Shown here one piece after another: positions 1,773 to 34,557 of a stretch of 39,693 nucleotides of DNA. The stretch's first letter is position 1. Each line of letters starts with the position of its first letter. The position numbers were made by a program, and so were the translations under genes. Under the pieces are notes generated by a model that worked only from the letters and a program-made list of their open reading frames with translations, had not been told where the DNA came from and made no database searches. The DNA comes from a virus: IMG/VR virus record IMGVR_UViG_3300033141_001892, positions 1-39,693 of that record. One strand, written 5' to 3'.

Positions 1773-1773
1773 G

Positions 1774-18667: not shown

Positions 18668-19501
18668 CGTTATTGTACAGAATGCATCGGTCTCGTAGAT
18701 CACTGGCACGCTTCTCAGGAACGTGTTGAAAATGTACGACTGGTTCTTCAGCACGTAATCCTCTTCCACGTCCAGGTCCTCTGCGATAACAAGCTCTGCG
18801 ATTTCAGGGCCTGTCGCCATCAAAAGGCCTGTTCCAGCAGTCATATCCCTGTCCATTCTTGGAGTGATCCCCAATTCCTTGATCAGGTCCATGTACCACT
18901 TGTCTGTGTTCGTGTTCCTTCTGAACAGCTCCCTGTACTGTACTGGATGCAGTAATAGTTCTTTCGGTTCGAATGTCGAACCAATTTCTCCTATCGCTGC
19001 AATCACGTCGTCCGTTGGATCGTTTGCGGCTGTCGACCAGTCGGAGCCTGCGTGTGTGTTGCCAGCGCCTCCGTACAATCCTGTGATCGTGTAAGGCGTG
19101 GTCGTTCCACTGATTATCATTGTGTTCTCCGCGTGCTGTGTGAGAATACTTGCTCTCCTCGCTTTCCTCGTGTTCAGAGGCTCGCCGTACTGTCTGCTTG
19201 ACAGCAAGTCTTCTCTCGCGATGCTGAATGAAACTCCTGTCTTAGGAATCCATGTCAGCGCCCTCGTGATGTCGATGTCCATCCCCGGGAAGTTAGTTGC
19301 CTTCTTGATCTGGCTTGCAGATCCCTTGTCAGACTGAGCATCGTAGCCGTACTCTTGCCTTCCTATCCCGACTTTTCTGGGAGAAAGGACTTTCCTTCCA
19401 GCCAAGTCAATATATCGAGGCTCGATTACTGCCACTCTAATTTCTTGATACTCCTCACTGGTAAGGGCCGCATCGTTCTCAATTTGGTTTAACATTCTCA
19501 T
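18659..19501 (-). CDS. Major capsid protein (HK97-fold type)
   Basis: A 280-residue protein that fits an HK97-fold capsid subunit by length and order. It has an N-terminal arm, a DIDITRALTWIPKTGVSFSI strand, the helix ARRASILTQHAENTMIISG (spine-helix-like), TYTITGLYGG-type loops, LLLHPVQYRELFR, and a C-terminal strand set ending SYIFNTFLRSVPVIYETDAF, reminiscent of encapsulin-like ends. No long N-terminal delta domain is present; a separate scaffold gene lies two genes upstream. It is flanked by the decoration gene and a strong terminator. Confidence 0.88.
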   Translation of the reverse strand: MRMLNQIENDAALTSEEYQEIRVAVIEPRYIDLAGRKVLSPRKVGIGRQEYGYDAQSDKGSASQIKKATNFPGMDIDITRALTWIPKTGVSFSIAREDLLSSRQYGEPLNTRKARRASILTQHAENTMIISGTTTPYTITGLYGGAGNTHAGSDWSTAANDPTDDVIAAIGEIGSTFEPKELLLHPVQYRELFRRNTNTDKWYMDLIKELGITPRMDRDMTAGTGLLMATGPEIAELVIAEDLDVEEDYVLKNQSYIFNTFLRSVPVIYETDAFCTITGI

Positions 19502-19924
19502 TTAGACCACCAAAATCCTGCCCCATGCGTTGTCACTTACATCATCTAGGGCTATTCCAACGATCTCGTAGTTCGTGCCTGATGCCGGCGTGTATGTTTC
19601 CACGTCTCCATTCGTCGAAGCGCTCACGAAGTCTCCTTCTGAGCTGCCTCCGTTTGAATAAAGATAGTAGATCTTCCCGGCTGTCAAAGCCTTCACTGCG
19701 ACAACGTCTCCGTCTGCGTATTGCGAGTTTCCTGTTTTGTCGTAGATGGCTTCGTCCACATCCGCGACTCCAAGAACCGCAACATCCGCGCCGGTTGTCA
19801 CCTTGACATCCCCGGCAGCTGTGCCAACCATTACCAGTTTCCCGAAAGGAATTGTCCCGTCGGCTTTCCTGGTGAAAGCGGCAGCAACCACTGCAGGATT
19901 GTCGTCATAAACTCTTGCAGCCAT
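19502..19924 (-). CDS. Capsid decoration protein (DUF2190-like)
   Basis: A 140-residue beta-rich protein just upstream of the capsid gene. The pattern IPFGKLVMVGTAAGDVKVTTG, AVLGVADVDEA, YADGDVVAVKALTAGKIYYL, YEIVGIALDDV resembles DUF2190-type decoration or cement proteins that bind the outer capsid lattice. It ends directly before the capsid ATG and overlaps the scaffold stop by one base. Confidence 0.8.
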   Translation of the reverse strand: MAARVYDDNPAVVAAAFTRKADGTIPFGKLVMVGTAAGDVKVTTGADVAVLGVADVDEAIYDKTGNSQYADGDVVAVKALTAGKIYYLYSNGGSSEGDFVSASTNGDVETYTPASGTNYEIVGIALDDVSDNAWGRILVV

Positions 19925-20451
19925 TACTTATCACCTCTCGCGTCGGCATACATTTGGAGCCTTTTTTCTTTAAGCTCGTCAACTTTGTCGTCTCCTTTGT
20001 CGTTCCAAAGCGTCCTTACCTGCTTTTTCCCGATGGAGTCTGTTTTTTTCTGCAGCTTTTCCACAGAGTCCTTGAGCGTCTTAGCCGCGTCACCTTGCTC
20101 TTCCACTTTCGCTTTGAGATCCTCGTTCTCTTTCTTGAGTTTCTCGTTCTCTTCCTTCAGAGTTTTGGTTTCGTCGGCTTCCTCGCCTTCCCCGTTGCCT
20201 TTGCCTTTGTCGCTGCTTTCGTCTTCGCCTTTGGTTTCATCCTCGGATTCGTCCTCGGACTCATCGTCAGATTCGTCCTCGTCGTCCTTGTCTTCCTTGT
20301 CTTTTTTCTTGTCCGCTAGTTTCTTCTTGAGTGCGTCGTTTTCCTTTTTAACATCCGCAACAGAGTCGTTGAGTTCCTTGATCCGTTCTATGGCCAAGTC
20401 CTCAAGTCCCTCGGGGGAATCTGCCTCTAAAACTTTCTGCAATTTGTCCAT
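19924..20451 (-). CDS. Scaffolding protein
   Basis: A 175-residue protein with an N-terminal helix, an acidic low-complexity stretch (residues about 54-90, nearly all D, E, S and K), a coiled coil (KTLKEENEKLKKENEDLKAK) and a basic C-terminus. This layout, between protease and capsid genes, is typical of scaffolds that guide HK97-type capsid assembly and are then removed by the protease. It is the first gene behind the late promoter at 20487-20533, with GGAGGGATCAA before ATG. Confidence 0.85.
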   Translation of the reverse strand: MDKLQKVLEADSPEGLEDLAIERIKELNDSVADVKKENDALKKKLADKKKDKEDKDDEDESDDESEDESEDETKGEDESSDKGKGNGEGEEADETKTLKEENEKLKKENEDLKAKVEEQGDAAKTLKDSVEKLQKKTDSIGKKQVRTLWNDKGDDKVDELKEKRLQMYADARGDK

Positions 20452-20486: not shown

Positions 20487-20533
20487 CCCTATGTCCCACA
20501 AACTCCTATTTATACTTTTGGGTTTTTCAAGGC
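20487..20533 (-). promoter_or_regulatory. Late promoter copy 2 (scaffold/capsid operon)
   Basis: On the coding strand TATAAATA (20514-20507) is followed after exactly 7 nt by GTGGGACATAG (20499-20489). A TTGAAAAA block lies 13 nt upstream of the box. The scaffold ATG is 38 nt beyond the element. The rest of the gap to 20659 holds a CAATCC/GGATTG hairpin and no convincing gene. Confidence 0.82.
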
Positions 20534-20659
20534 AAAAATAGGGCTTATTCACTCTATTAGACAAGAAATCGCACGCTTAGAGCCACCTGATTAACTTTCA
20601 ATCCTTGTTGTAATGGATTGGCCTCTGCAATGCTTTTTCCAAATTCAAGCGTTTCATAA

Positions 20660-21547
20660 TTAAGCAGCTGAAAAGGCATTCAATCCAACGCCATCCTTAG
20701 AACCAGCTCTTCCGCGTTGAACTAAAGCCAGGTGGTCAAAGAAAAAGTTCTCCTGGCGGAAATCGTAATTCTCTCCCTCAAATTCCCCGGGCTCGTTTAC
20801 TTCGGTGCATCTGAATCCGACGCTCACGTCCTCCAAACGCCCCTTTTTAATGTCTTCAATCAGCCTCTTGGTTTTGGGCTCTTTTTTTACGAACACATCC
20901 CCATAGGGCCTCTTTCCTTTCTTATCCCATTTCACCGTGTCAAAAACAATGTACCCAACCTGCTGGCCCATGTTCGTGACAACCTTTTCTTTAGGATGCA
21001 CGTAAGCAGTCACCGGCTTGCCCCTCAAAGAGTCCAGGGCTTTCCTCAATTCACTGGCCGGCTTGTAGTGCTTGCCGTTGTTGTACTGCTGCACCATCTC
21101 CTTCGTAAAAACAACGTCATGGAAAGTGATGCCCTCGTTTGTTTCAGTCCAAGCGTCTGCCTCCAGGCTGTCGCCTTTCATTCCAATAGAATCAACATGC
21201 CTTACAAATCCTTTTCCTGCAGCCTGGTCTTCAAGCTTCTTGATCAGTGCCTTGTCTGCCAAGGTTCTGTCTTTCGCGTTTGCCTGGTCTTCCAGCTTGC
21301 TAAAAAGAATCATGTCGCTAACGGAATCGTTCTTGTGTTCTGCGATCCATTTCCTTGCAGAGGCCACAGTCCATTTCTTCTTGTCAAATAAATAGGATTG
21401 AACTTCGCTGCCGCCGCCTTTTTTGAATCCGACAACGGCCTTAATTCCTTTCGCCGCGCTGATCGTGATCGTCCTCATCCGCACGTACTGGCCTGGGGCC
21501 TTCTGTCTCATCCGTATATAATTTTCCGTGATGTCCGGCGCAGGCAT
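20660..21547 (-). CDS. Prohead protease (DUF2213-like)
   Basis: A 295-residue protein. Residues about 110-290 match phage prohead proteases of the DUF2213/XkdF type: GITFHDVVFTKEMVQQY, LRGKPVTAYVHPKEKV with a conserved His, VGYIVFDTVKWDKKG, DVFVKKEPKTKRLIEDIKKG and LEDVSVGFRC with a conserved Ser. The N-terminal 100 residues form a separate domain. The ATG at 21547 has AGGAGTG in front; a TTG two codons upstream is possible. It should cleave scaffold and capsid proteins during maturation and lies behind two late promoters. Confidence 0.8.
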   Translation of the reverse strand: MPAPDITENYIRMRQKAPGQYVRMRTITISAAKGIKAVVGFKKGGGSEVQSYLFDKKKWTVASARKWIAEHKNDSVSDMILFSKLEDQANAKDRTLADKALIKKLEDQAAGKGFVRHVDSIGMKGDSLEADAWTETNEGITFHDVVFTKEMVQQYNNGKHYKPASELRKALDSLRGKPVTAYVHPKEKVVTNMGQQVGYIVFDTVKWDKKGKRPYGDVFVKKEPKTKRLIEDIKKGRLEDVSVGFRCTEVNEPGEFEGENYDFRQENFFFDHLALVQRGRAGSKDGVGLNAFSAA

Positions 21548-21557
21548 AATCAATCAC

Positions 21558-21606
21558 TCCTATGTCCCACATTCTCCTTAATATATTTTTGCCTTTTTCA
21601 GGCAAT
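21558..21606 (-). promoter_or_regulatory. Late promoter copy 3 (protease)
   Basis: TATATTAA (21585-21578) and GTGGGACATAG (21570-21560) stand 7 nt apart, with CTGAAAAAGGC about 14 nt upstream. The protease ATG is only 13 nt beyond the element, so the transcript would have a very short leader and the element itself supplies the AGGAG site. Confidence 0.8.
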
Positions 21607-21612
21607 AATGTG

Positions 21613-21672
21613 CTAAAAGCCCCCAGGCCCTGCATTTTCCTGGTCAATCCTTCCCATCCAGGCCATGCACAT
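21613..21672 (-). CDS. Leader mini-ORF between two tandem late promoters
   Basis: A 19-codon frame (MCMAWMGRIDQENAGPGGF) with GAAGG shortly before its second ATG at 21666. It starts just downstream of late promoter copy 4 and stops before copy 3. It may be a short expressed peptide or a remnant of a gene; length alone cannot prove coding. Confidence 0.3.
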   Translation of the reverse strand: MCMAWMGRIDQENAGPGGF

Positions 21673-21675
21673 TCC

Positions 21676-21722
21676 TTCTATGTCCCACGTTCTACTATTT
21701 AAATCTAAGTCTTTTTTCAGGC
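21676..21722 (-). promoter_or_regulatory. Late promoter copy 4, just after the giant fibre gene
   Basis: TTTAAATA (21703-21696) is followed after 7 nt by GTGGGACATAG (21688-21678), with CCTGAAAAAAGAC 14 nt upstream overlapping the stop of the giant fibre gene. It sits 118 bp before promoter copy 3, so the protease gene has tandem late promoters. Confidence 0.8.
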
Positions 21723-24700
21723 GATTTCCAGCGTAAGCGAGGGCTTTCTTAGCTTCACGTCAAGGCTTGGCTTCCTCAGCTCCACGTCCAGTGACTGCTT
21801 CCTCAGGTAAACATCCAGTCCGGATTTTATGAATGGCACGTAAAGGATCGCGTCCGCCGTCATTGCCTTTGTCACGGTGCCTATCAGCATCGCGTCGGCG
21901 GTGAATGTTTTTGTTGTCACTAATCTCAGGATGGCGTTAGCTATAAAGGTCTTTGTTGTCCGGAGCCTGATCCATGCGTCCGCAGTAAAGGCCTTCGTTT
22001 TCCTTGCCCTCAAAATAGCATCAGCAGTGAATTCTTTCGTCGCTACTAAGCGCAGCATGGCATCCGCGCTGAAGGTCTTCGTAATTATTTTAATCAGTAC
22101 TGCGTTTGCTGTGAAGGTTTTTGTTGCTGTCGCCTGCAAGATTGCATCAGCTATGAAGGTCTTCAGGCCTGTCGCTCTCAAAAACGCATCCGCAGTAAAG
22201 GTCTTCTCTATCCTGCTTACAACTATTGCACTAGCTGTGAATGTCTTTGTGGAAGTCTTGCGCAGGAAAACGTCAGCTGAAAAGGTTTTGCTCAGCCTTT
22301 GCACAACGATTGCGTCCGCTTCAAAGGCCTTGGTTCCTGTTCTCCTCAAAAAAGCGTCTGCAGTGAATGTCTTTGTCAAGCCCTGCTTTTGCAGGAAGGC
22401 ATCTGCAGTGAATGTCTTTGTGAGCCGGTCAACCAAAATGGCATCGGCTTCAATTGTTTTCGTTTGCCTGGCCCTGAGGAAAGCATCCGCACTAAACTGC
22501 TTTGTTCCTGTCTTCCTCAAATAGGCATCCGCAGAAAACGTCTTCGTGAAAACGGCTCTTAAGAATGCATCCGCAGTAAATGATTTGGAATAAGTTACTC
22601 GTAGTAATGCATCTGCCGTAAAGGTTTTTGTCAGCCGGTTGACAACCACCGCGTTCCCGGTGAATGTTTTTGTTTGCGTTACCAGCAGGAACGCATCGGC
22701 AGAGAACGTCTTCGTCTCCCTGTTGACTAAGATCGCGTCCGCAATAAATTCCTTTGCCTGAACCTTCCTCAGGAAAGCGTCAGCTGTAATCTCTTTTGTA
22801 AACGTGGCCTTTAGGATTGCATCTGCCGTAAATTGTTTTACTGTCGCAACCTGCAAAATCGCGTCGGCAGTAAAAGCTTTTGTAAGGCCTTTGCTCTGCA
22901 AGTATGCATCCGCTGTGAACTCTTTCGTAAATGTAGCCTTCAATATTGCATCCGCAGAAAACTCCTTTGTCTTTCTTTTGATTAATACTCCAAAGCCTTC
23001 CGCGCAGGCTTCAGCGCCATCTGCTCCAATCCAGCAAATCGCCACGTCCGTCCAGGCCGGCAAGCTGTCAGCTGTCAGAATCTGGGCCACCGTGGTTGTT
23101 TTCGCCACCGCGTCTGTTGCAGGATTGAACTCGTACGAGTCGTTGGCAAGGATCGGATCCCAGGTATCTAAGTCGCAGTCGCGTATCCTGAACTCCATCA
23201 TCGTATTGTCGTGTTCCCAGATAACCGAAAACAATCCATCCTCATGCTCTACTATTCCAACTCCGCCGTTTCCTGTAGTCCTTGCGTCAACAGTTTCCGC
23301 TGCCTGCCAGGCCCCAGTAGCCCCCAGAGCCCTCTCCCTGAATTCAACACTCCCATCAGCAGCAACATAAACAACATGAACGTGCTTATTTCCTGAATCT
23401 TCCGAATGCTCAAAATCAAATCTTGCTTTTGTAGCATAACCTGTAGCAATTGTTTGCTCAGTTTCAAAAGCATTATTATCCCAATACCTTGACTTCAGAG
23501 TTGCTCCTTCCTTCCAACAAATTATCATATCATTCTTTTCTGCTTCCTCACCAACCGACCTATCAGAACATCCCCAAATTATAGCAGTATTATCTACATT
23601 GCTTACATCCCGCTTTGCATCCCAAGCAGTTATATCCCCTGTGCTTGTTTGAGTTTTTGATTGCACCCACTGTTTGCCTGTAGAGGAATCATAAAAAACA
23701 GCAGTAGCCCAAAGCAAAGGATTTTGGTTTCTATCTGATGCCAAATTGACTTTTTTATACCAATCGCCTGATTCTGTTGCATCAAAGACCTTGGTTGTAT
23801 TTTGCCAAGCCCAACCTGTTGCAGATGCCTCATCTGATTCCGCTACATAAGTGTCCGTTCCATCCGAGTAATGGATTGTTGTCGGAATGATTCCGTCTCC
23901 GCCTCTGACAGTAAAGCAAGCTCCGCAGCCCGGACAGCTAATCGTCGCATTCGCATTCGTGGCCCAGTTGTCCCCTGCCAAGTTGTCTTTATGGATATAC
24001 TCAAAAATGAGATTGTCTCCGTTCTGCCTTGATCTCCAGTAATAGGGATCGTTAAACCACATTTTTCTTTGCCAGTTTCCTCCAAATTCTCTTCCGCAAA
24101 CCAGCTGCGCATCCGCTGTAAAAGTCTTTGTTTGCACGGCCCTAAGATAAGCATCCGAGGTGAACGTCTTCGTCAGCCTGTTCACTAAGATGCTGTCTGC
24201 AGTGAATTGCTTTGTCTCCGTTGCCTGCAAAAAGGCATCCGCTGTGAACTGTTTCGTGTATGATTTCCTCAAGTAAGCGTCTGCGGTAAAAGTCTTCGTC
24301 TGCTGCTTTCTCAAGAAAACGTCAGCTGTGAAGGTCTTCGTATAAGTCTTCCTCAAATACGCATCAGCAGTAAACTCTTTTGTCAGCCGCTCCACTATGA
24401 TAGCGTCTGCCGTAAACTCCTTTGTGAATTGCGCTCTCAAGAAAGCGTCAGCTGTGAGCTCTTTCGTGTGCCTGTTTACCAGGATTCCGTCTGCCTCAAA
24501 TGTTTTGCTCTGCTCTTTCTGTAGATAGGCATCAGCTGAAAACTCTTTTATCAGCCGGTCCACTACTATGGCATCTGCAATAAATTCCTTGCTCGCTGTC
24601 TTGCGCAGGAAGGCATCTGCAGTGAATGCCTTCGTTTCCACCGCTCTCAGGTAAGCATCCGCAGAAAAGGCTTTGCTCAAAGTCGCCTGCAGGAAAGCGT

Positions 24701-25850
24701 CAGCTGTGAATGCCTTGGTTTCTCGGTTCACAAGGATTGCATCTGCTATAAAGGTCTTCTCAACGGTAGGTGAAGTAATTGTAAAGTCTGCTGTTGCAGA
24801 CCAATCACCTGCAGTATATCTAACAAGGCGCCCATCTCCTGTGAATGTTTTTGTCAAGCCGCTTGCTTTCAAAATCGCATCGGCAGTAAAGGTTTTTGAC
24901 AACCTATCGACAAGGATTGCGTCAGCAGTGAAGCTCTTGGTGTATGTTACAGAAGGCGAGGAATATCCCATCAAATAAAAATCGCAGCTTGAGCTTTCAA
25001 CATAGTATTCAATAATCTGGCTTGCATCGCATTCGCAAGAAGCATGCACCATCAAGTTGTTTATCCTGTCATGGATGTCCTCTGCAGTCCCGTTTTTTCT
25101 AACACCAAAATAGCCATCTTGAGGACTAATCTTAACATCAAAGAAGCCTCCAGTGGCCCCTGCAGGCAATGCGTTTCCAAAATCTGTCCATGCATCTGCA
25201 ACTGTTGTACCCATATCCGTTGCATTTGTATTCATAATAACCTTTTCTTTGATGTACCCAAGCAAATAAAAGCGCTGATAAGAATAGCCTCTATATACTT
25301 CGCAAACCTCCGAACCGTCCACGCCTGTTATGAGTCCACAAATATCATTAGCGGTTCCAGTTCTGTTATCAGTGCTTCCGTTCTTCCTTGCGTTTCCAGC
25401 AGCATAAGCTCCAAAAGTAGCAACAGACTCTAAACAGGCAGCAATGGCTGTATCTCCGCCTGTATCAGACGAAATATCCACATCCTGCCAGCCAGTGGTG
25501 TCTCCTGGCGTCTTATCAGGCGCGTTAGTAAAAAAGCTTGCCTCATCTTCAAAGTAGCCAACAAGCCAGACATCAACCTCTGAAGCATCCTCTACCTTCA
25601 CTTCAAAAATGTCGTCACCGTCAATTCCGCAGGTTGTCCAGAAGTGCCCAAGGTTCTCTATGTCATAATAGCGGTTGTCTGTGCTGCCGTTTTTCCTATA
25701 GCCGAAATTTACATCGCCTGCAACATTGCTAACAACGTGCAGTATCACGCCAGTTGCATTGACTGAAACATGGGCAGTGACGTCTATGTCTGTCCAAGTC
25801 GCATCTACTGCATGCGCCACGTTAACTGGCGTAATCCATGAAACTACCAT
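21717..25850 (-). CDS. Giant tail-fibre/adhesin protein with 46 KTFTADAxL repeats and a central propeller
   Basis: A 1,377-residue protein, the largest in the genome. Residues 1-303 hold three related beta domains, each with a RKNG(S/T) motif and a closing FYLLGY- or WLVGYF-type strand. Nineteen copies of a 14-15-residue repeat K-(T/E/A)-F-(T/S)-ADA-(I/F/Y)-L follow, then a sialidase-like or BNR-like domain of about 350 residues, then 27 more repeats, then three LDV-x-LRKPS units. No membrane segment or signal peptide is obvious. The start has GAGG 8 nt upstream. It lies among tail and fibre genes and probably forms a long, thin, variable fibre for host attachment. Confidence 0.8.
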   Translation of the reverse strand: MVVSWITPVNVAHAVDATWTDIDVTAHVSVNATGVILHVVSNVAGDVNFGYRKNGSTDNRYYDIENLGHFWTTCGIDGDDIFEVKVEDASEVDVWLVGYFEDEASFFTNAPDKTPGDTTGWQDVDISSDTGGDTAIAACLESVATFGAYAAGNARKNGSTDNRTGTANDICGLITGVDGSEVCEVYRGYSYQRFYLLGYIKEKVIMNTNATDMGTTVADAWTDFGNALPAGATGGFFDVKISPQDGYFGVRKNGTAEDIHDRINNLMVHASCECDASQIIEYYVESSSCDFYLMGYSSPSVTYTKSFTADAILVDRLSKTFTADAILKASGLTKTFTGDGRLVRYTAGDWSATADFTITSPTVEKTFIADAILVNRETKAFTADAFLQATLSKAFSADAYLRAVETKAFTADAFLRKTASKEFIADAIVVDRLIKEFSADAYLQKEQSKTFEADGILVNRHTKELTADAFLRAQFTKEFTADAIIVERLTKEFTADAYLRKTYTKTFTADVFLRKQQTKTFTADAYLRKSYTKQFTADAFLQATETKQFTADSILVNRLTKTFTSDAYLRAVQTKTFTADAQLVCGREFGGNWQRKMWFNDPYYWRSRQNGDNLIFEYIHKDNLAGDNWATNANATISCPGCGACFTVRGGDGIIPTTIHYSDGTDTYVAESDEASATGWAWQNTTKVFDATESGDWYKKVNLASDRNQNPLLWATAVFYDSSTGKQWVQSKTQTSTGDITAWDAKRDVSNVDNTAIIWGCSDRSVGEEAEKNDMIICWKEGATLKSRYWDNNAFETEQTIATGYATKARFDFEHSEDSGNKHVHVVYVAADGSVEFRERALGATGAWQAAETVDARTTGNGGVGIVEHEDGLFSVIWEHDNTMMEFRIRDCDLDTWDPILANDSYEFNPATDAVAKTTTVAQILTADSLPAWTDVAICWIGADGAEACAEGFGVLIKRKTKEFSADAILKATFTKEFTADAYLQSKGLTKAFTADAILQVATVKQFTADAILKATFTKEITADAFLRKVQAKEFIADAILVNRETKTFSADAFLLVTQTKTFTGNAVVVNRLTKTFTADALLRVTYSKSFTADAFLRAVFTKTFSADAYLRKTGTKQFSADAFLRARQTKTIEADAILVDRLTKTFTADAFLQKQGLTKTFTADAFLRRTGTKAFEADAIVVQRLSKTFSADVFLRKTSTKTFTASAIVVSRIEKTFTADAFLRATGLKTFIADAILQATATKTFTANAVLIKIITKTFSADAMLRLVATKEFTADAILRARKTKAFTADAWIRLRTTKTFIANAILRLVTTKTFTADAMLIGTVTKAMTADAILYVPFIKSGLDVYLRKQSLDVELRKPSLDVKLRKPSLTLEIA
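21830..22967 (-). repeat. Second coding repeat block, 27 units of about 42 bp
   Basis: Twenty-seven consecutive copies of the KTFTADAxL unit, 42 or 45 bases each. The first half of each unit is conserved (coding K-x-F-x-ADA), while the second half alternates among a few classes such as LVNRLT, LRKTGT and LQATAT. Synonymous differences between copies are frequent, so the array is old or under recombination rather than a fresh amplification. Confidence 0.9.
24100..24938 (-). repeat. First coding repeat block, 19 units of about 42 bp
   Basis: Nineteen copies of the same KTFTADAxL unit precede the central domain. One unit (the third) carries an insertion of about 17 residues. The classes of second half (VNRLT, RKTYT, QATET) match those of the second block and of the shorter array in 26243-27493. 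Confidence 0.9.
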
Positions 25851-25860
25851 AAACTATGCC

Positions 25861-26229
25861 TCACTCGATGGCTGTTGCTTTAATGCCCAATTCTATTCCT
25901 TCAGCTTTCAGAGCAGCAATTCTGGCGGCTGCTTGCTCGTTCTTCTTGCCAATGACCTTACCGTCTCTGTCTATGTCATCGTTGTACTCTGCCTCTGGAA
26001 TTTTGTCCTTTGCAGGCTGCTTTAGGTTTTCCTCGTGAAAGTCAACTTCTCTTTCGAGAAAAATAAGCCCGTGTAGCTTGTCGAACTGTTCCTTTGTTAG
26101 AATCCCATAGGTTCTGAAAGGCTTCTTGTTGTAGTAGCAGTCCGATAGCTCGTCATGCACTGCGTTGTACTTGTGGTCTATTACCTTCCTTAGCTTCTCG
26201 AACTGAATTCCTTCAAAATTTCTCTCCAT
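25861..26229 (-). CDS. Protein of unknown function between fibre genes
   Basis: A 122-residue mostly helical protein (KLRKVIDHKYNAVHDELSD, LTKEQFDKLHGLIFLEREV) ending in a alanine-rich helix. It lies between two fibre genes that share KTFTADA repeats, so it may be a fibre assembly or chaperone protein or a small structural part. No family is recognised. Confidence 0.6.
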   Translation of the reverse strand: MERNFEGIQFEKLRKVIDHKYNAVHDELSDCYYNKKPFRTYGILTKEQFDKLHGLIFLEREVDFHEENLKQPAKDKIPEAEYNDDIDRDGKVIGKKNEQAAARIAALKAEGIELGIKATAIE

Positions 26230-26242
26230 GATTTTTCCCTCC

Positions 26243-27493
26243 TTAGTCGGTTAAATTTAATTCTTTAATCCTCCACCATTTGTTTCCTGGAGTAAGCGTT
26301 GCATTGTACCGCACGTCATTTTCAAAGTAAGCAGAATCCAGGCCTGCTGCCGGCATTGGCTCCCAGCTGTCGCCGTCCCAAAATTCCCAATTTGTTTGGC
26401 TTGTGTAAGAATTTGCTTCTAATTCAATATCCTGGAAATCAACGTTTGTCTTGTCAACCTGTAAAAGAAAATGCTTTTTTCCCCCTCCTGCATCATATAT
26501 ACTGGATGTCGCAACCATGTAAACAGGGCTTGGCACTGCTGCGGCATCCTTCGGGCTCACTATTATTGGAATTGTGGATATGAGTATGGCACCAGTCGTA
26601 AATGTTTTCGTCAGGCCCGGTGTCTGCAAGTATGCATCTGCTGTAAAGGTCTTAGTAAGCGTGACTTTTAGGATTCCATCAGCAGTAAAAGTTTTTGTTA
26701 AGCGATTAACCAACACTGAATCTGCTGTGAAAGTTTTGAGGTAAGTTCCTTTTAGGATTGCATCTGCTTCAAATGTTTTAGAGAAAGCTGCTTGAAGAAA
26801 GGCATCAGCAGTAAAAGTTTTTGTTAATCCAAGTGATTGTAAAAAAGCATCAGCAGTAAAAGTTTTTGTTAAGCGGTTAACCAGTATTGAATCTGCTGTG
26901 AAAGTTTTTGTTAAAGTAGACACTTCTGCTGGACCGTAAACGGTATCGTCGTAGTCTGTCGTGGTTACCCACGGTTCGTGGTCTGCTGTGTAATAAGTCA
27001 CGCCTCCAATATTTTTCGTGTAGGAAACGGATTTGTCCACGTCGGATTCAAGCAAGTCACCATTTGAGTCGTATATGTAAAAGCTTACTTTGTTTCCGGG
27101 ATTGTCAACGACAACCCGAAGCTTGTACCAAGTGTTGTCTAATGGCGTGGTGGTAAAGGTTGCATCGCCGCCTTGCCAATAGTAGTGGAACTCATCGTGC
27201 CATATTCTTAGACTAGCCATTGTGCCTCCGTCAACGTCGCGAATATATACCCAGACCGCCCAATCGCTCCCGCAATCGCTTGTTCTAGCCCAAGTAAAAA
27301 AGTCATAGCTTGGCTCGTCCATTCCAGACCTTGTGATGCTGATTAGCTGAGTGTCGTTGACTCCGTCGGTTGTAAATCGACAGCCATAGCTTCCGTTTTT
27401 TGCAGCTGCCCCCACTACTGTGATTGTTCCGCCAGTGGTCTCTGTTGTCCAAAGGGGCTTTAGTTCACCGCTTTCAAAATCGTCATATGCCAT
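26243..27493 (-). CDS. Tail fibre with lectin-like N-terminus and 8 KTFTADA repeats
   Basis: A 416-residue protein. Residues 1-190 form a concanavalin/laminin-G-like beta sandwich (AYDDFESGELKPLWTTETTG, WYKLRVVVDNPGNKVSFYIYD). Eight KTFTADAxL repeats follow (about 195-310), and a C-terminal beta domain (KHFLLQVDKTNVDFQDIELE, WEFWDGDSWEPMPAAG) closes the protein. The lectin-like head suggests sugar binding at the host surface; the repeats probably form the shaft shared with the giant fibre gene. Confidence 0.78.
   Translation of the reverse strand: MAYDDFESGELKPLWTTETTGGTITVVGAAAKNGSYGCRFTTDGVNDTQLISITRSGMDEPSYDFFTWARTSDCGSDWAVWVYIRDVDGGTMASLRIWHDEFHYYWQGGDATFTTTPLDNTWYKLRVVVDNPGNKVSFYIYDSNGDLLESDVDKSVSYTKNIGGVTYYTADHEPWVTTTDYDDTVYGPAEVSTLTKTFTADSILVNRLTKTFTADAFLQSLGLTKTFTADAFLQAAFSKTFEADAILKGTYLKTFTADSVLVNRLTKTFTADGILKVTLTKTFTADAYLQTPGLTKTFTTGAILISTIPIIVSPKDAAAVPSPVYMVATSSIYDAGGGKKHFLLQVDKTNVDFQDIELEANSYTSQTNWEFWDGDSWEPMPAAGLDSAYFENDVRYNATLTPGNKWWRIKELNLTD
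26575..26910 (-). repeat. Third coding repeat block, 8 units
   Basis: Eight KTFTADAxL units in the lectin-like fibre gene. Three units share nearly identical bases coding KTFTADS(I/V)LVNRLT, closer to each other than to the giant gene, which points to recent local duplication or gene conversion. Confidence 0.88.
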
Positions 27494-27497
27494 TTTT

Positions 27498-28037
27498 TCA
27501 CATCCTTTCTTTTGTTTCTTTCTTGACCAGAATCGCTCCGGCAGACACTGCCTTCTTTCCCTTTTTCAAAAGCACCGCGCCCACAGTGAAATGGTGCTCG
27601 TCAAAGCACTTGGTCTCAGCCGGCAGAGGACTCCCTATCGCATTATAAGGGGCTTCTCTCCATTTGCCTGCGAGCTCTACATGCCCGTCCCCGAAAACGT
27701 AAGCAATATCCTGCACGTTTCTTCCTTCTATCGTGGCCTGCCATCCCACCAAGTAAACAACCGTTCTTTTTTCTCTGATGAGTTCCGGCTTCTCTTTCCC
27801 GAACTGCATTCTCTCCAAAACTCTGCGCCTGTAAATCAGCCTGCGGCCCGGCTCCATAAACATTTTGAACAAAAGCCTGTCCGGCTGCTCCCTTGCTGCA
27901 GCCTTCCTTATCTCAAAAGCAGCCAGCCTATACCGGTCTATATCCGGGTACTTGTTTTCCTTTCCGTCTTCCTCGAACTGGCACAAGCTCGTGCCGTCCT
28001 TGTAAATGGCCTTCCAGTAAATACTTTGTCGCATCAT
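27498..28037 (-). CDS. Structural protein with two diverged C-terminal repeat units
   Basis: A 179-residue protein. The start at 28037 is chosen because ATG overlaps the homing endonuclease stop as ATGA. The N-terminal part (IYWKAIYKDGTSLCQFEEDG, YPDIDRYRLAAFEI) is a compact domain seen in viral structural clusters without assigned role. The C-terminus has HFTVGAVLLKKGK and KAVSAGAILVKKET, which look like two degenerate copies of the fibre repeat. It may be an adaptor or fibre-associated protein. Confidence 0.65.
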   Translation of the reverse strand: MMRQSIYWKAIYKDGTSLCQFEEDGKENKYPDIDRYRLAAFEIRKAAAREQPDRLLFKMFMEPGRRLIYRRRVLERMQFGKEKPELIREKRTVVYLVGWQATIEGRNVQDIAYVFGDGHVELAGKWREAPYNAIGSPLPAETKCFDEHHFTVGAVLLKKGKKAVSAGAILVKKETKERM

Positions 28038-28414
28038 TCTCTCCTCCGTAGTGTTTCCAGGAATTTCTGAGCAGTTTCTTTCTTCAAAACAAGCTCTGGC
28101 AGAATCCATTCAGTAAATCTTAAGCAGTCATAGAAAGAGTGAAGCGTCCAACAATACTGTGCACTCCAATGTGCCTTCCAGCTCTTTTGCTTTCCTCTTC
28201 TTTGCAAAATGCCGCCTACATTAGAAACAATGTAATCCAGCACGAATTTGTCTCTTTCAATTAAAGCAATTCTCACCATGGGCTTTACTCTTTTCCCATC
28301 TTCAACATAGAAATTGCCTTCACCGTCAAGTAATCCAGCAAGCCAGCACTTAAATTTCTCGCTTACTTCAAAATTCAATCTACATTCTTTTCTCTTTTGT
28401 TTATTGGAGTCCAT
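28034..28414 (-). CDS. Free-standing LAGLIDADG homing endonuclease
   Basis: A 126-residue protein with one LAGLIDADG motif (WLAGLLDGEGNFYV, about 24-37), followed by a basic beta region and helix. Single-motif enzymes act as homodimers that cut long DNA sites and copy their own gene into empty alleles. It is not inside a recognisable intron but sits between structural genes, coupled by ATGA downstream, the usual state of free-standing homing genes in tailed viruses. Confidence 0.85.
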   Translation of the reverse strand: MDSNKQKRKECRLNFEVSEKFKCWLAGLLDGEGNFYVEDGKRVKPMVRIALIERDKFVLDYIVSNVGGILQRRGKQKSWKAHWSAQYCWTLHSFYDCLRFTEWILPELVLKKETAQKFLETLRRRE

Positions 28415-28439
28415 TGTATTGGTCCCTCCCTCCTTTTTT

Positions 28440-28556
28440 TTATCTGCTTTTCAGCAGTTGCCTTTCTGTCTTCCTGATTTTCTTCCGCCGCCACCGTACG
28501 GCCCTTTTCCATCTCTGTTTGGCATTTGGATTTCCTCCCTTTTTTTTAGCAGCCAT
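28440..28556 (-). CDS. Very basic small ORF overlapping a microprotein gene
   Basis: A 38-residue frame, over 40 percent lysine or arginine (KQRWKRAVRWRRKKIRK). It overlaps the DUF5320-like frame 28451-28525 in another phase. No good ribosome-binding site precedes its ATG. It could be a small DNA- or RNA-binding peptide or an accidental frame opposite a real one. Confidence 0.35.
   Translation of the reverse strand: MAAKKKGGNPNAKQRWKRAVRWRRKKIRKTERQLLKSR
28451..28525 (-). CDS. DUF5320-like microprotein
   Basis: A 24-residue frame reading MPNRDGKGPYGGGGRKSGR and then QKGNC. This follows the pattern of small archaeal and bacterial DUF5320 proteins (MPxGDGTGPxGxGPxTGRGxGxC). A GGGAGG site lies 8 nt before the ATG. 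The family has no firm function. The 160-base gap between the structural gene and the homing gene contains this frame and an overlapping basic frame. Confidence 0.5.
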   Translation of the reverse strand: MPNRDGKGPYGGGGRKSGRQKGNC

Positions 28557-28579
28557 CTAGTAGCTACTATTCTTTTCCT

Positions 28580-29146
28580 TTATATCTCGTCGTACTGCCA
28601 GGTGAACGTCTCGTTTGCAAGGTCTCCTGGGCTTGCTGTTGAGTCGACTTCCATGCTCAGAACGATGTAGTCCGTTGTCTCGTCTATCGCGTCGATCTGG
28701 CTGTCTGTTTCCGAAATGGTTACGCTTCTCGGATCTCCACTTCCGTAAGTGAAGAAGTCTGTTGCTGTTGCCACGTCCGTGTGGTTCGTGATCACTTCGT
28801 TCGTGTCAGAAACATCATAGCCTGTTGTCGCTCCGCTGTTGTGCACCTGCACTCCGTCGCCAATCTTCACTGTGATCCCGGTCCCGAAGCCGCCTTCGTC
28901 CGTGTAGATCTTCACGTTGTCGACCTTGGTGCTCGGCGCTGTCGTGCACTTCAGGTATATCTGCTTCCACCTGCTGTACTCTGTTCCTGCTGCCGGAATC
29001 GGCATAGGATCGTTGGCATCTATCGTTGGGTTGTCTGCCTGCTTGAACCTAATGTTTGGCGGTCCCAAGGCGTCTGTGTTCGTGCTTGTTCCTGGGTTGT
29101 TGTCTGTTCCCCCGGTGTCCAACATCACATTAAATGCCGCTGCCAT
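28580..29146 (-). CDS. Beta-rich virion protein
   Basis: A 188-residue protein counted from ATG 29146 with GGAGGTGATAT upstream (a GTG three codons earlier is possible). Its core (SRWKQIYLKCTTAPSTKVDN, IYTDEGGFGTGITVKIGDG) is strand-rich and has the look of a surface or baseplate component: after the portal and before fibres, no enzyme motif. Family not recognised; head fibre, whisker or tail accessory protein are possible. Confidence 0.65.
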   Translation of the reverse strand: MAAAFNVMLDTGGTDNNPGTSTNTDALGPPNIRFKQADNPTIDANDPMPIPAAGTEYSRWKQIYLKCTTAPSTKVDNVKIYTDEGGFGTGITVKIGDGVQVHNSGATTGYDVSDTNEVITNHTDVATATDFFTYGSGDPRSVTISETDSQIDAIDETTDYIVLSMEVDSTASPGDLANETFTWQYDEI

Positions 29147-29167
29147 CCATATCACCTCCGTTTAGTT

Positions 29168-29500
29168 TTATGGCAAATCCTTCACTACTCGAATGTCAAA
29201 TCTCCTCGTAGTGATGATCTTTCCTCCTGAATACGTTATCTGTAATTCAGCATGATACAGTCCGACGTTATTCAGCTCGTCGGCTGCTTTGGTGTAATGG
29301 CACACGCCGTTCGCATAGGGCGTCTGCTTTGCGCAGGTTGATTCAAGCTCTAGCGTCGCGCTGCCTGGCGCTGCAGCCTTGATCGCTATTTCTGTGACGT
29401 CTGTCAGGTCAACCGGTGTTCCGGCATAGTCTTTTACCGTCAAGGGATGCGTGGTAAGCTTGTCGTTCTGCACGACTTCCAGGACTTCAATTTCAGCCAT
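29168..29500 (-). CDS. BppU N-terminal-like Ig-fold virion protein
   Basis: A 110-residue protein. It reads VVQNDKLTTHPLTVKDYAGT, PVDLTDVTEIAIKA, LYHAELQITYSGGKIITTRR, matching the N-terminal Ig-like domain of baseplate upper proteins (BppU) and related surface-anchored domains. The ATG at 29500 lies just after the portal stop, with GGGAGG inside the last portal codons. It probably decorates the head or baseplate. Confidence 0.7.
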   Translation of the reverse strand: MAEIEVLEVVQNDKLTTHPLTVKDYAGTPVDLTDVTEIAIKAAAPGSATLELESTCAKQTPYANGVCHYTKAADELNNVGLYHAELQITYSGGKIITTRRFDIRVVKDLP

Positions 29501-29502
29501 CC

Positions 29503-31476
29503 TCAGCTCCTCCCGAAATATGCCACGACTGTGCATCTGCAGTTTGGCTCTTCTAATTCTGACGGCGTGTTGTCAAGGTTGAAAATGTGCCCGTTCAAGA
29601 GCGCATGGCTTGGCCTCACAACGTCATCGCCAGCTGTAATATATTTTACTTTTTTCACTTTTCCCGAATCCCTGTAAGACTGCTTTATGGACTGCGTCAT
29701 GGCTCTGTGCGATTCCGTTCTCGCAATCGTGTCCGCGTTGTGCTTTGCCCCGTCGACAATCAGCTTCACTTTCTTCCTGATCTTCGGAATGCCTTCCCCA
29801 GCCAACACGCTCTCCTGCACCGCGAACAGCGTCTTCTTTGTCACGTCCTTCCCCACGCTGTTCACAAAAACGTAATTCGACTGCTTCAGAATTTTCTTGA
29901 TCTGCCCGGCCTTTTCGCTGGCCATGATGTTCATGTTCAGAAGCAGTTCCGACTTGTCCCAGCCGTATTGCCAAGAAGCGTCCACGTTCTTGTCAACGGC
30001 TGCCTTCACTTTCTTGGCCCTGGCCTGTTCGATAACCTCTAGCTCTCTCTCCAGGTCTCCGAAATCGTCCGTAATAATTCCCTCGACCTCGCTTCCTTTA
30101 ATCGCTTTCATTAGCTCATTGACCGAGAAAAGCTTGCCCAAGTCCGCTGAATATTCGGCCTCCAGCTTCTCGACCTCATCAGCCTCCAGATTGGTCTCGT
30201 CAGAGTACTCAAAATCTATCTTTACACTGTCCGGCGTGTCCTGCATTGCTTCCTTTTCAATCTCTTCTTTTACCTTGTCCGGATCCAAAACTCCGGCCTC
30301 GATCCTAATCTTCTCGGTCTCGGCCTTGAGCTTGTCTATCTCAGCCAGTTCCTTCTCATCCATTTCCTCCAAAGGATTCCACTCAATAGAAAACTCTCCC
30401 TGGGCGACCTGCTTCGTGTCCTGCAAAATCCTGATGAGCTGCTCGATGACCGGCGTCTCGTCGAGCTCCTGCTTTGAGGAAATGTCCGAATAGTAGTCCT
30501 TCAGATTCATTTCGCTGCCTGTGACGGCCCCTGCTGCAGCGCCCTCCACTATCTGCAGGGGAATGTCAAAACTCATGGCCACGGCCTCCAAAGCCACCTT
30601 AAAATAGTTCTCCGGATTCAAAGCGCTTCCTTTTGCCCCGGTAAAAGCAATCTCCGTGTCGTCGTCGCTAACCCATCCGGTCAAGGAGTTCACGTCCTTC
30701 CACTGCTTTTTTATCTTGTTCATTTCAGTAGGGGATCCGCCCTTCTTTTTGATATGCGGAAAACCGGAGGCATACCTGTAAAATCCCTGGCCCGTGCTCC
30801 AGATCACGTTGTCCAAAACAGTCAGATAGTTGTAGGCCGGCTTCACAAAACCTATTCCGTTCATGCTGTTCCCGTAAGTGTTCACCGGCAGGAAAATGAA
30901 CCGGCTTGCATGAATTGTTTTCGCTTCGCCTTTCCCGATCTTTACTTTTGCCGCAATTATTTCCCCGTATGTTTTCGAGTTCTCGTCCTCGTCCAGAATC
31001 AGTTTCCTCACGTCGCTTGGCGTGATGATGCTCAAATAGTCCAGGCTCCTTGGGTTCTCAACCTTTTCGCTTAATTCTCCCTCGTCCGAAAAGCCCAAGG
31101 CAAGCAAAGCGTATCCTTCGACCATGCCAACCTTCCTGCATTCTTTCAGATTCCACTGCAGGTTCAAATGCGCCACGCCGGTGTCACGCAGCTTGGAGCT
31201 CTTCGAGGAAAAGACGTCGGTCACGTCCTTGATCAGCTGCTCGTTTTCCGATTTGATAAAAAACCAGTTGTCAAAAGTGTCGGACGCAATCTTGTTGACG
31301 AGCTTTCGTGTGATCCCGTTTCTCTCGTACGCCTTCCTGCAGTGCGCGTTCGTGATGTTCGCAGTCCAGAGGTCGCCCTTGGTCAAGGCCTCTGTTCCCT
31401 TGTCTCTAAGTTTCGGAATAAGCAGGCCGTCAACAAACTGCTTCCCTCTACTAATAGCGTCACCGATCACAGACAT
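29503..31476 (-). CDS. Portal protein fused to a MuF-like head morphogenesis domain
   Basis: A 657-residue protein. Residues 1-400 look like a portal (GITRKLVNKIASDTFDNWFF, LDYLSIITPSDVRK, FDIPLQIVEGAAAGAVTGSE near the end of the stem/crown). Residues about 410-560 are acidic and helical. The last 110 residues are a MuF/gp7 domain: NADTIARTESHRAMTQS, DVVRPSHALLNGHIF and NCRCTVVAYF. Natural fusions of the two exist in other tailed viruses. The start at 31476 is supported by the promoter lying upstream of it and by GAGG; the frame is open to 31611 but that part holds the promoter. Confidence 0.85.
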   Translation of the reverse strand: MSVIGDAISRGKQFVDGLLIPKLRDKGTEALTKGDLWTANITNAHCRKAYERNGITRKLVNKIASDTFDNWFFIKSENEQLIKDVTDVFSSKSSKLRDTGVAHLNLQWNLKECRKVGMVEGYALLALGFSDEGELSEKVENPRSLDYLSIITPSDVRKLILDEDENSKTYGEIIAAKVKIGKGEAKTIHASRFIFLPVNTYGNSMNGIGFVKPAYNYLTVLDNVIWSTGQGFYRYASGFPHIKKKGGSPTEMNKIKKQWKDVNSLTGWVSDDDTEIAFTGAKGSALNPENYFKVALEAVAMSFDIPLQIVEGAAAGAVTGSEMNLKDYYSDISSKQELDETPVIEQLIRILQDTKQVAQGEFSIEWNPLEEMDEKELAEIDKLKAETEKIRIEAGVLDPDKVKEEIEKEAMQDTPDSVKIDFEYSDETNLEADEVEKLEAEYSADLGKLFSVNELMKAIKGSEVEGIITDDFGDLERELEVIEQARAKKVKAAVDKNVDASWQYGWDKSELLLNMNIMASEKAGQIKKILKQSNYVFVNSVGKDVTKKTLFAVQESVLAGEGIPKIRKKVKLIVDGAKHNADTIARTESHRAMTQSIKQSYRDSGKVKKVKYITAGDDVVRPSHALLNGHIFNLDNTPSELEEPNCRCTVVAYFGRS

Positions 31477-31500
31477 AAGCATTCCTCGCGAGAAAACCGT

Positions 31501-31557
31501 CCCTATGTCCCTCAAACTTCTATTTATACTTTTACTTTTTTTCAGCGTTTTCAGGCA
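31501..31557 (-). promoter_or_regulatory. Late promoter copy 1 (portal)
   Basis: TATAAATA (31528-31521) is followed after 7 nt by GAGGGACATAG (31513-31503), one mismatch from the other three copies. CTGAAAAAAAG lies 14 nt upstream of the box and a second CCTGAAAA just before it. The portal ATG is 27 nt beyond the element. This explains the gap between terminase and portal genes. Confidence 0.8.
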
Positions 31558-31565
31558 AAAAAGCT

Positions 31566-32927
31566 TCAAATTCCAGCGTCGAAGTGTTCTGTTTTGTTTC
31601 CTGCAACCCACAAGGCCAGGGCTATGCTCCAGAAGGAATCCCCGTGCCCTTCAGGTGTTTCAAGCGCCTGGAGGTCCCCGTCGACTACAAGGATCTGGTC
31701 AATCATTCTCCGGTCGTTCAGCAGCTCTATTTCCTTGTTGTCAACCATTTTCTCGAAATTGGTCGCCATGTCATGCTTTGTCGTTGTCTTGAAAACAACC
31801 GGCTGCAGGACATTGCTTAGTTCTCCGCGCTCGACGAACGATTCCATCTCTCCCCTGGTCGCATCATAGGCCCCACTGTCGACCTTGAACCTTCTCACAA
31901 GCTCGTTGACGTGCCTTCTCTGGTCGTCGTAATTCCATTTGTCCATGAACTTCTGGTAAATCTGAATCCAGTGCCCTGCCGGGCGCTCCTCAAAAATGGC
32001 TACATGGGACGGATGCACTTTCTTCCCAATGTCCCAGCCCAGCACTACATAACTGTCTCTTAGCATTTCCTTTTCCTGCTGCAGCGAAGCATTCACCACG
32101 GTCATGACTTTGTCACGAGTCATCCAGGCCTGCTCCGTCCACACCGGCTTGCATAAATACTCCTGGCTGAAAACTCTGTCCCCCAGCTCTCTTTTCCTTC
32201 TCATCAGCTCTTCCCAAGGCATGTACTCCGGCCACAGGGCTTCCTGCGTCGCCCAGTCCTTCACTGCCGGCAAAACCTGTACCTTGAATCTCTCCGTCAG
32301 CTTCTTGTCGAAAAAGAAATCGAAGTCCGTCTGCGGAGTCCCGACCACGTGCATCTGGCCCCCGGTCTTCAGCATGCCCATTACTTCCGTCACAAAAATC
32401 CTGTTTATTTTGTTCACCACAGTCGGATTCAGCTTGTTCTCCGGATCCCTCAAAGGATCGTCCACGTAAATCCTCGGGCAGTGCACTCCCCTCTTGAACG
32501 AAAGCAATCCGTTCGGCGTAAGCCTTGTTACCTCATGCCTTTTTTCCATCCAAGCATATTTCAGGATCCCTTCCGCCGTCGGCTTCAAGTCAATACAATC
32601 CTCGTAAAACGGGTTCCTTTCAATAAGCTGCTTGATCTTTCCCCCGTGGTATGCCGCCATCTTCGTGTTGTAAGAGAAGTACTGGCACTCCAGGCCCGGG
32701 TTGTAAATCAGGTCATACATAAAATGCGCGTACAAGCTCGTGCTCTTGAAGTGATCCCTTGCGCTCACTCGCATTGTCCTGTCGTTCTTTCCCAAGAACT
32801 CGGCGGTGCTGTAGACGTGCTGCCCTTCGGTGAATCTGTCGAAAGACCTCGAAAAAATATGCTCCATGAAATAGGGAAAATTGTCCTCTCCTGCAATGAT
32901 GTGCCTGGCAAACTCTTCCTCATCCAT
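31566..32927 (-). CDS. Terminase large subunit
   Basis: A 453-residue DNA packaging ATPase-nuclease. The P-loop region reads VSARDHFKSTSLY (about 54-66), a variant in which the glycine before the lysine is replaced. The Walker B strand is RIYVDDPL (Asp156-157), followed by a motif III-like VVGTPQT. The nuclease domain has GWDIGKKVHPSH (Asp near 299), SGAYDATRGEMESF and GHGDSFWSIALAL. ATG 32927 follows the upstream stop; a TTG six codons earlier is possible. It pumps DNA into proheads and cuts concatemers. Confidence 0.9.
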   Translation of the reverse strand: MDEEEFARHIIAGEDNFPYFMEHIFSRSFDRFTEGQHVYSTAEFLGKNDRTMRVSARDHFKSTSLYAHFMYDLIYNPGLECQYFSYNTKMAAYHGGKIKQLIERNPFYEDCIDLKPTAEGILKYAWMEKRHEVTRLTPNGLLSFKRGVHCPRIYVDDPLRDPENKLNPTVVNKINRIFVTEVMGMLKTGGQMHVVGTPQTDFDFFFDKKLTERFKVQVLPAVKDWATQEALWPEYMPWEELMRRKRELGDRVFSQEYLCKPVWTEQAWMTRDKVMTVVNASLQQEKEMLRDSYVVLGWDIGKKVHPSHVAIFEERPAGHWIQIYQKFMDKWNYDDQRRHVNELVRRFKVDSGAYDATRGEMESFVERGELSNVLQPVVFKTTTKHDMATNFEKMVDNKEIELLNDRRMIDQILVVDGDLQALETPEGHGDSFWSIALALWVAGNKTEHFDAGI

Positions 32928-32928
32928 G

Positions 32929-33501
32929 CTATCCCCGGGTTTCAACTCTCTTCAGGTCCTCCAGTGCTGCCTGCTTGTCCCCCAGGAATTCTATTGTATT
33001 GGGCCCGAATTTCACTCTGGACTTGTGGCCCAAGCAGGTTATTCTCCTGTGGGCTTCCTTCAAGATGTGCTTTCCTCGAATCTTCCCGACATGCTCACGG
33101 TCCTCCACGCGCACTATCCCCCTATTGATTACGTAAGCTATGTATTCTTTCCAGATCCTCGCCCACCTCATTCTCCTAGGCGCAACCGAAGGCTGCAAAG
33201 GAGGTTTCTTCTCTTCCTTCGGCCGCGCCCTGGCAGCTTTCTTTTCTTTAAGCAGCAATTTCTTGAATTCTTTTTCCGATGCAGTCTCCCCGTAGACCTC
33301 TGGCTTGACTGCAGCAGGCTTTTCCCCGGCCTTGAAAAACAATTCTATTTCCTGCAGGATCCTCTTTATTTTCGTTGTAGCCGCGAACTCCTTGCCGTCC
33401 CATGCGTATGTCTGCCTGCATCTGGCGCACGCTATCCTCCCGGGATTCTCCTTTGCGATGTTGAAGTCCCTCGATCCGCACTTACACACTTGCTTTTTCA
33501 T
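32929..33501 (-). CDS. Zinc-ribbon protein between terminase genes
   Basis: A 190-residue basic protein. The N-terminus has CKCGSRDF and, 17 residues on, CARCRQTYAWDGKEF, a complete zinc ribbon. The rest is helical and basic, with a C-terminal segment VKFGPNTIEFLGDKQAALEDL. It overlaps the terminase small subunit candidate by 20 bases. It may help DNA recognition during packaging; no family is recognised. Confidence 0.65.
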   Translation of the reverse strand: MKKQVCKCGSRDFNIAKENPGRIACARCRQTYAWDGKEFAATTKIKRILQEIELFFKAGEKPAAVKPEVYGETASEKEFKKLLLKEKKAARARPKEEKKPPLQPSVAPRRMRWARIWKEYIAYVINRGIVRVEDREHVGKIRGKHILKEAHRRITCLGHKSRVKFGPNTIEFLGDKQAALEDLKRVETRG

Positions 33502-34556: not shown

Positions 34557-34557
34557 T

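Follow-up and report, generated by a model that had tools for sequence, protein, structure and literature searches.

In the viral record IMGVR_UViG_3300033141_001892 of IMG/VR, whose whole 39,693-nt stretch was analysed and is referred to here as the window, we identified four minus-strand promoters, termed the portal promoter, P1, P2, and P3, in which a TATA box is followed after exactly 7 nt by the 11-nt element GTGGGACATAG. The four sites are almost certainly a genuine promoter class, and this class is very likely specific to the virus. The element itself is likely read by a factor that evolves together with the virus. As a whole, the data are probably best explained by a virus-specific archaeal core-promoter class for virion genes, which would be served by the host TBP and TFB together with a factor, probably viral, acting at positions −15 to −5.

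A preliminary description of the sequence had proposed these promoters, and both their positions and the state of the element (three exact copies and one with a single mismatch) proved accurate. The A-rich block, however, had been placed 13–14 nt upstream of the box, whereas the distance from the end of AAAAA to the box is exactly 8 nt in each of the four promoters, and that from the end of TGAAAAA is 8–9 nt. The suggestion that all four precede head genes was borne out for the portal promoter, for P2 (protease), and for P3 (scaffold). It did not hold directly for P1 (21676-21722), downstream of which lie a conserved, apparently non-coding block of about 60 nt (21610-21670) and then the next promoter, P2. 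The coordinates of the features are given in Table 1.

Table 1. Promoter parts, neighbouring genes, and candidate regulators in the window
Feature	Position	Strand	Remark
TerL	31566-32945		Start of the head-tail module
Portal promoter, A5 tract	31537-31541	-	8 nt upstream of the TATA box
Portal promoter, TATA box TATAAATA	31521-31528	-	GAAG directly downstream (31517-31520)
Portal promoter, element GAGGGACATAG	31503-31513	-	One mismatch
Portal (PF06381) with fused Mu-F-like minor head domain (PF04233)	29503-31482	-	First gene past the portal promoter
P1, A5 tract	21712-21716	-	
P1, TATA box TTTAAATA	21696-21703	-	
P1, element GTGGGACATAG	21678-21688	-	
Conserved, apparently non-coding block	21610-21670	-	Starts a few nt past the predicted start of P1
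P2, A5 tract	21594-21598	-	
P2, TATA box TATATTAA	21578-21585	-	
P2, element GTGGGACATAG	21560-21570	-	
Head maturation protease (DUF2213/phrog_530)	20660-21553	-	Gene past P2
P3, A5 tract	20523-20527	-	
P3, TATA box TATAAATA	20507-20514	-	
P3, element GTGGGACATAG	20489-20499	-	
Scaffold-like coiled-coil protein	19924-20451	-	First gene past P3
Cement protein (PF22758)	19502-19924	-	After the scaffold
Major capsid protein	18659-19501	-	After the cement protein
Early-type TATA box TATATATA	7737-7744	-	Without A5 tract or element
Candidate regulator, RHH-like (ribbon-helix-helix) small protein (weak DUF7557 match)	7557-7691	-	Second candidate; first gene of the early operon
Candidate regulator, 177 aa, coiled coil and tandem winged helices (predicted)	6137-6670	-	First candidate
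Candidate regulator, 112-aa TFB-like protein with a single cyclin repeat	2992-3330	-	Third candidate; this virus only

The recurrence of the element is exceptional for this sequence. There are 254 places in the window that lie 7 nt downstream of an all-A/T 8-mer, and the sole 11-mer recurring at these places was GTGGGACATAG, with three exact copies. Among 200 Markov-resampled copies of the window, the largest recurrence count was one in 197 and two in 3, and it never reached three. The 11-mer alone was not enriched in the window (11 matches with at most two mismatches vs. 6.6 expected); thus, the signal lies in the combination of box, spacing, and element. A matrix search of the window found only these four sites.

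Two relatives were recovered by searching with the terminase large subunit, TerL: relative A (IMGVR 3300033149_005320, 29 kb, TerL 79% identical) and relative B (3300033145_002134, 39.8 kb, TerL 68% identical). Alignment of the regions showed that the portal promoter, P1, and P3 are present in all three viruses and P2 in the window and relative B, so that four, three, and four sites were counted in the window, A, and B, respectively, all at orthologous positions. With a matrix built from these 11 sites, left-out sites scored 33–52 bits, whereas shuffled sequences reached at most 12.8 bits, although this leave-one-out test is not fully independent because orthologs remain in the training set. 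Nothing else in the three genomes scored above 15 bits. At position 14599 of relative A, within the open reading frame before the protease gene, TATATAAA is followed after 7 nt by GTAAGAGTATA (14.7 bits, no A5 tract); this site is possibly a remnant of P2. Neither the portal nor the capsid protein, each used singly as a query, found any viral contig; no additional promoter-bearing member emerged from alignment searches with TerL, portal, and tail tube, and six more distant TerL relatives (41–51%) had no such promoter according to the matrix.

The layout is rigid in all three viruses and consists of an A5 tract, 8 nt, the TATA box, GNAG, 3 nt, the 11-nt element, a purine-rich stretch, and a pyrimidine-purine (YR) step. 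Counted from the element, AAAA at −28 to −25, A at −18, A or G at −17, T at −13 and A at −12 and −8 of the box, the G directly after the box, A and T at positions 6 and 9 of the element, and a purine at column 15 were invariant in 11 of 11 sites, and the distance from the element to the TATA box was fixed to the base in every one. The four bases after the box were GNAG in nine sites and GCAC and GGGG in the remaining two. Column 15 is the predicted +1, give or take a few bases, which corresponds to starts at about 31498, 21673, 21555, and 20484 in the window. On this setting, the centre of the box falls at −26.5 and the AA at −33/−32; the start is a purine in all 11 sites and is preceded by a pyrimidine in nine. 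The 11-nt element then covers −15 to −5, and the A5 tract covers −43 to −39. In archaeal promoters, the TATA box is located at −26/−27, the TFB recognition element (BRE) at −34/−33, and the proximal promoter element (PPE) and TFE at −10 (PMC8553660); the predicted positions of the box centre and of the AA thus agree with the archaeal norms.

The letters of the element behave differently from its position. GTGGGACATAG is gone from both relatives, and each of them has its own shared 11-mer in the same place. The window carries GTGGGACATAG three times and GAGGGACATAG once; relative A carries TGCAGATATAA (portal promoter and P3) and GAGGGATATAG (P1); and relative B carries GCCATAGATGA and GTGATAGATGA (portal promoter and P3) and GTGGAAGGTAA and GCAGAAGGTAA (P1 and P2). 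The mean identity of the element was 0.77 within genomes vs. 0.53 between orthologs, whereas the next 11 bases showed the reverse (0.41 within genomes and 0.59 between orthologs). When the genome labels were shuffled within each promoter type (432 arrangements), the within-genome identity of the element was the best of all 432 labellings (permuted mean 0.59), and no within-genome effect was detected for the 7-nt spacer and the flanks. The support from this permutation is good but not overwhelming, since it covered seven segments and only three genomes. The absence of an effect in the spacer and the downstream flank makes gene conversion of whole promoters unlikely, and the pattern of letters fits a co-evolution of the element with its reader rather than copied DNA. 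Thus, the virus-specific class of an archaeal virus foreseen in the preliminary description stands in so far as it is distinct, rigid, placed before virion genes, repeated in two relatives, and absent from the rest of the metagenomic bin that holds relative B, but the exact element is not conserved. Loss of the element from close relatives with persistence of the promoters had been named there as a refutation; half of this was observed, as the letters GTGGGACATAG have disappeared and a shared 11-mer of each virus's own remains. The motif search proposed there, for CTATGTCCCAC with the spacing, returned chance matches only across the collection, and TATA-N7-GNGGGACATAG, sought across 2.9 million viral contigs, gave 17 stretches, approximately the chance number, in unrelated contigs and none with the A5 tract. 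More generally, such classes can be found without cultures by looking for promoter segments whose similarity inside one viral genome exceeds that between orthologous promoters.

As claimed earlier, the early promoter at 7714-7760 lacks the element. This promoter and its counterparts in relatives A and B have a sequence environment different from that of the composite class. A simple scan of the window revealed no further clear intergenic TATA promoters; therefore, the genome seems to possess one early promoter and four of the composite class. The two-class arrangement, one early promoter and three or four composite ones, is repeated in the relatives.

The host is very probably an archaeon, because relative B falls into a “Candidatus Diapherotrites” (DPANN) bin, where it is also contig JAFCCK010000001.1, and because an integrated provirus of the group lies beside a CTP synthase gene there. 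The provirus occupies positions 1-6700 of a second contig of the bin (C13), which carries genes of the viral group, 33–66% identical and related to the early region of the window, as well as the genes for CTP synthase and an ABC transporter. A tRNA-like 3′ end was recognised by eye at the provirus junction; ARAGORN calls none. An integrated provirus beside cellular genes is better host evidence than the binning of a free circle. The link, made for relative B and the provirus, rests on membership in an incomplete bin, and binning is not proof. We conclude that the group very probably comprises archaeal head-tail viruses with DPANN (Diapherotrites) hosts. No TFB was found in the incomplete bin.

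Under the reading that we favour, the TATA box and the A-rich BRE next to it would be bound by the host TBP and TFB. At about −15 to −5, the 11-nt element would occupy the place of the PPE and TFE, at the upstream edge of the transcription bubble, where a sequence-specific factor evolving with the virus, most likely a viral protein, would read it and help to open or recruit the initiation complex after expression of the early genes. The fixed distance to the TATA box argues for contact with the initiation complex and not for a free-standing operator. Our best guess is a viral reader that would act late at the −10 region, the late timing being suggested by the content of the genes.

The first candidate for such a reader would be the tandem winged-helix protein of 177 aa, conserved throughout the three viruses and the provirus. 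Its structural model has a mean predicted local distance difference test (pLDDT) score of 77.5 and is based on only three sequences. The fold matches include tandem winged-helix proteins; the C-terminal winged helix matches F-112 of the Sulfolobus virus SSV1 (Z 8.0, root-mean-square deviation 2.4, 66 residues), and the Foldseek matches include a chain from the Pol III initiation complex. Because this fold often gives such matches, the model only makes nucleic-acid binding plausible, with no specific function readable from it. The third candidate is the counterpart of a single part of archaeal TFB, the second cyclin repeat, which in full TFB reads the BRE (PMC7289017); phmmer matched it to the structure of an archaeal TFB (2.4e-12), and its PF00382 match exceeded the cut-off. 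It had no match in A, B, or the more distant records, some of which are fragments, and was rejected as a reader common to the group. No sigma factor was found in the window, where helix-turn-helix parts gave only weak sigma-region-4 matches. A bacterial sigma-70 promoter was likewise rejected, since the letters resembling TTGAAA are separated from the box by about 10 nt instead of 17 and the host is very probably an archaeon.

Several points weigh against a late activator reading the element. With only three viruses available, the 11 sites form a small and non-independent set, and orthologs of the tested sites had served to train the matrix. Relative A is without P2 and has at best the weak site at 14599. 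Two sub-versions of the element exist within A and B, one in the portal promoter and P3 and the other in P1 and P2. The A-tract segment was also top-ranked in the permutation, with a small effect (0.671 vs. 0.622). In addition, the predicted recognition helices of the 177-aa protein barely differ among the three viruses, which disfavours it as the sole specificity factor. Finally, start sites, timing, and direction of effect are all deduced from the nucleotide sequence, and the reader is a candidate only.

A further-reaching proposal is core-promoter switching, in which a virus-encoded initiation factor would read the element at −15 to −5 and redirect the host RNA polymerase to the virion genes. 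This factor would be the tandem winged-helix protein, TFE-like in action, or, in the window virus, the one-repeat TFB; the combined proposal is a tentative possibility. If true, these archaeal viruses would have an equivalent of sigma-factor switching in which each virus's element and reader evolve together.

A repressing instead of an activating role appears unlikely, in which a viral repressor would bind the element as its operator and silence the virion genes, for example in the provirus state or early in infection. Most characterised archaeal viral regulators are RHH or zinc-finger DNA-binding proteins, several of them repressors (PMC5569661), and the first early gene of the window encodes an RHH-like protein. 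The group also includes an integrated provirus, and relative B has a recombinase-like gene, as judged by eye. However, operators usually tolerate variable spacing, whereas here the spacing to the TATA box is constant in 11 of 11 sites and linked to the A5 tract and GNAG, and the 11-mer is not palindromic.

A feature of the host core promoter, such as a PPE or initiator read by host TFB, TFE, or RNA polymerase and differing between the viruses through their different host species, appears unlikely. The element does sit where contacts of host TFE and the PPE are expected (PMC8553660), and the G+C contents of the three genomes (0.48, 0.43, and 0.42) may mean different hosts. In the approximately 1-Mb Diapherotrites bin of relative B, however, the composite without the element (A5-N5-AA-N-TATA-GNAG, at most one mismatch) occurred four times, all in the viral contig. 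The TATA box with the element of B had four exact matches, the viral ones, and none outside the viral contig. With at most one mismatch, 10 matches lay outside that contig vs. 5 for the reversed control, so there is no clear excess. This comparison covers the incomplete bin of relative B. The early promoters of the viruses themselves, which are without the element, also speak against a general host feature.

That the element acts in RNA, as an initially transcribed or 5′-leader sequence, is very improbable. The predicted leaders at P1 and P2 are very short, and the purine-rich letters close to the element may coincide in part with Shine-Dalgarno sequences. On the other hand, the start predicted from the TATA distance and the YR step, at column 15, lies beyond the element, and the transcribed flank shows no within-genome likeness. 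The preliminary description had left the choice between a factor-binding site and an initially transcribed element; with the start predicted downstream, the former, as a core-promoter element at −15 to −5, fits better. Least probable is a set of recent functionless duplicates of one promoter, arisen by copying or gene conversion: the element is nearly identical within the window, but there the 11-mer is preserved amid differing flanks and 7-nt spacers, the relatives have orthologs at the corresponding places, and the permutation effect is essentially confined to the element.

The promoter class described here can be compared with known systems. The phage T4 late promoter has TATAAATA as its −10 box, which is used by bacterial RNA polymerase with a viral sigma factor, gp55. 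Two of the boxes in the window share the same eight letters, and both systems represent a virus-specific class, late in T4 and presumably late here; however, the present viruses very probably infect archaea, their box is variable (TTTAAATA, TATATTAA), and additional elements flank it. A promoter of the T4 type does not fit the varying box, the link to an archaeal host, and the failure to find a sigma factor. In the rudiviruses SIRV1 and SIRV2, a GTC motif downstream of the TATA box was proposed to be virus-specific (Kessler et al., 2004, as summarised in PMC5569661). According to that summary, it is likewise a cis-element that closely follows the TATA box at many promoters of a single archaeal virus and has a proposed regulatory role, but it comprises three bases and occurs in the majority of promoters of Sulfolobus viruses. 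The present element, unlike GTC, is 11 nt long, starts 7 nt past the box, and is restricted to virion-gene promoters of DPANN-linked head-tail viruses. GTC right after the box was found in none of the 11 sites, and the GNAG directly following the box may be nearer to it in position than the element is. Judged by this likeness, the kind of element is already known, and the present promoter class is a new variant.

In many archaeal viruses, a common core promoter of the early genes is surrounded by regulatory sequences specific to the virus (Aca8 and others, PMC11065993). Those sequences, too, are shared within one viral genome and differ between viruses, which there implies different viral regulators. 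However, they mark early anti-defence genes, whereas the genes marked here are those for portal, protease, and scaffold/capsid, the spacing is exact, and the element lies between the TATA box and the start, with the early promoter lacking it. Given the predicted start, the BRE-like AA, TATA box, −10 region, and YR step would agree in position with the general archaeal core promoter (PMC8553660; PMC7289017), from which the conserved 11-nt sequence at −15 to −5 and the A5 tract at −43 to −39 are absent. In the literature, which was covered in part, no comparable element was found among late-gene promoter motifs of archaeal tailed viruses, and this is weak evidence of novelty. The timing of gene expression in archaeal viruses is poorly understood, and for viruses infecting DPANN archaea the same literature yielded nothing on it. 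The exact geometry, the virus-tuned element, and the few conserved candidates make it testable in vitro which viral protein reads the archaeal −10 region.

The block downstream of P1 is strongly conserved in the three viruses at the nucleotide level and not as a reading frame. A peptide was rejected: relative A has a shifted frame, and relative B has lost the ATG and acquired a stop. Pairings GUGC/GCAC and CCAGG/CCUGG are kept in the three viruses with one two-sided change, which is weak evidence of structure: this change in the hand-drawn stem was reached by 174 of 500 shuffles, and ordinary folds were no better than shuffles. The block may be a small RNA, a packaging site, or another cis element.

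Nearly all genes of the window lie on the minus strand, and the head-tail genes follow the order TerL, portal, protease, scaffold, cement, major capsid protein, and tail genes. The protease reading frame is listed from a TTG, but the ATG at 21547 is the likelier start. The ends of the window record are identical over 114 bases, as are those of relative B, and the gene order of the two is permuted, which suggests complete circular assemblies.

Between the protease gene and P3, at 20595-20631 on the minus strand, lies a lone repeat of the clustered regularly interspaced short palindromic repeats (CRISPR) type, ATTGCAGAGGCCAATCCATTACAACAAGGATTGAAAG. It corresponds to Rfam CRISPR-DR7 (38.4 bits, above the gathering score) and has no second copy; its 22-nt core was unmatched in the genome collection, and nothing convincing was found in the Diapherotrites bin. 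Proteins of 1377 and 416 aa encoded at 21717-25850 and 26243-27493 (minus strand) contain related repeats that are shuffled between the viruses. A 404-bp patch is 92% identical to relative A, with surroundings of about 70%, which suggests recombination in a tail-fibre-like gene. The window also encodes two ParB-N-domain proteins (3964-5196 and 33939-34571, minus strand), the second of which adjoins a gene for an N6/N4 DNA methylase (34716-35591). A cluster spanning the circle junction (129-1546 and 36467-39648, minus strand) comprises glycosyltransferases, two methyltransferases, and a radical SAM protein, and it possibly serves the modification of host-surface or virion glycans.

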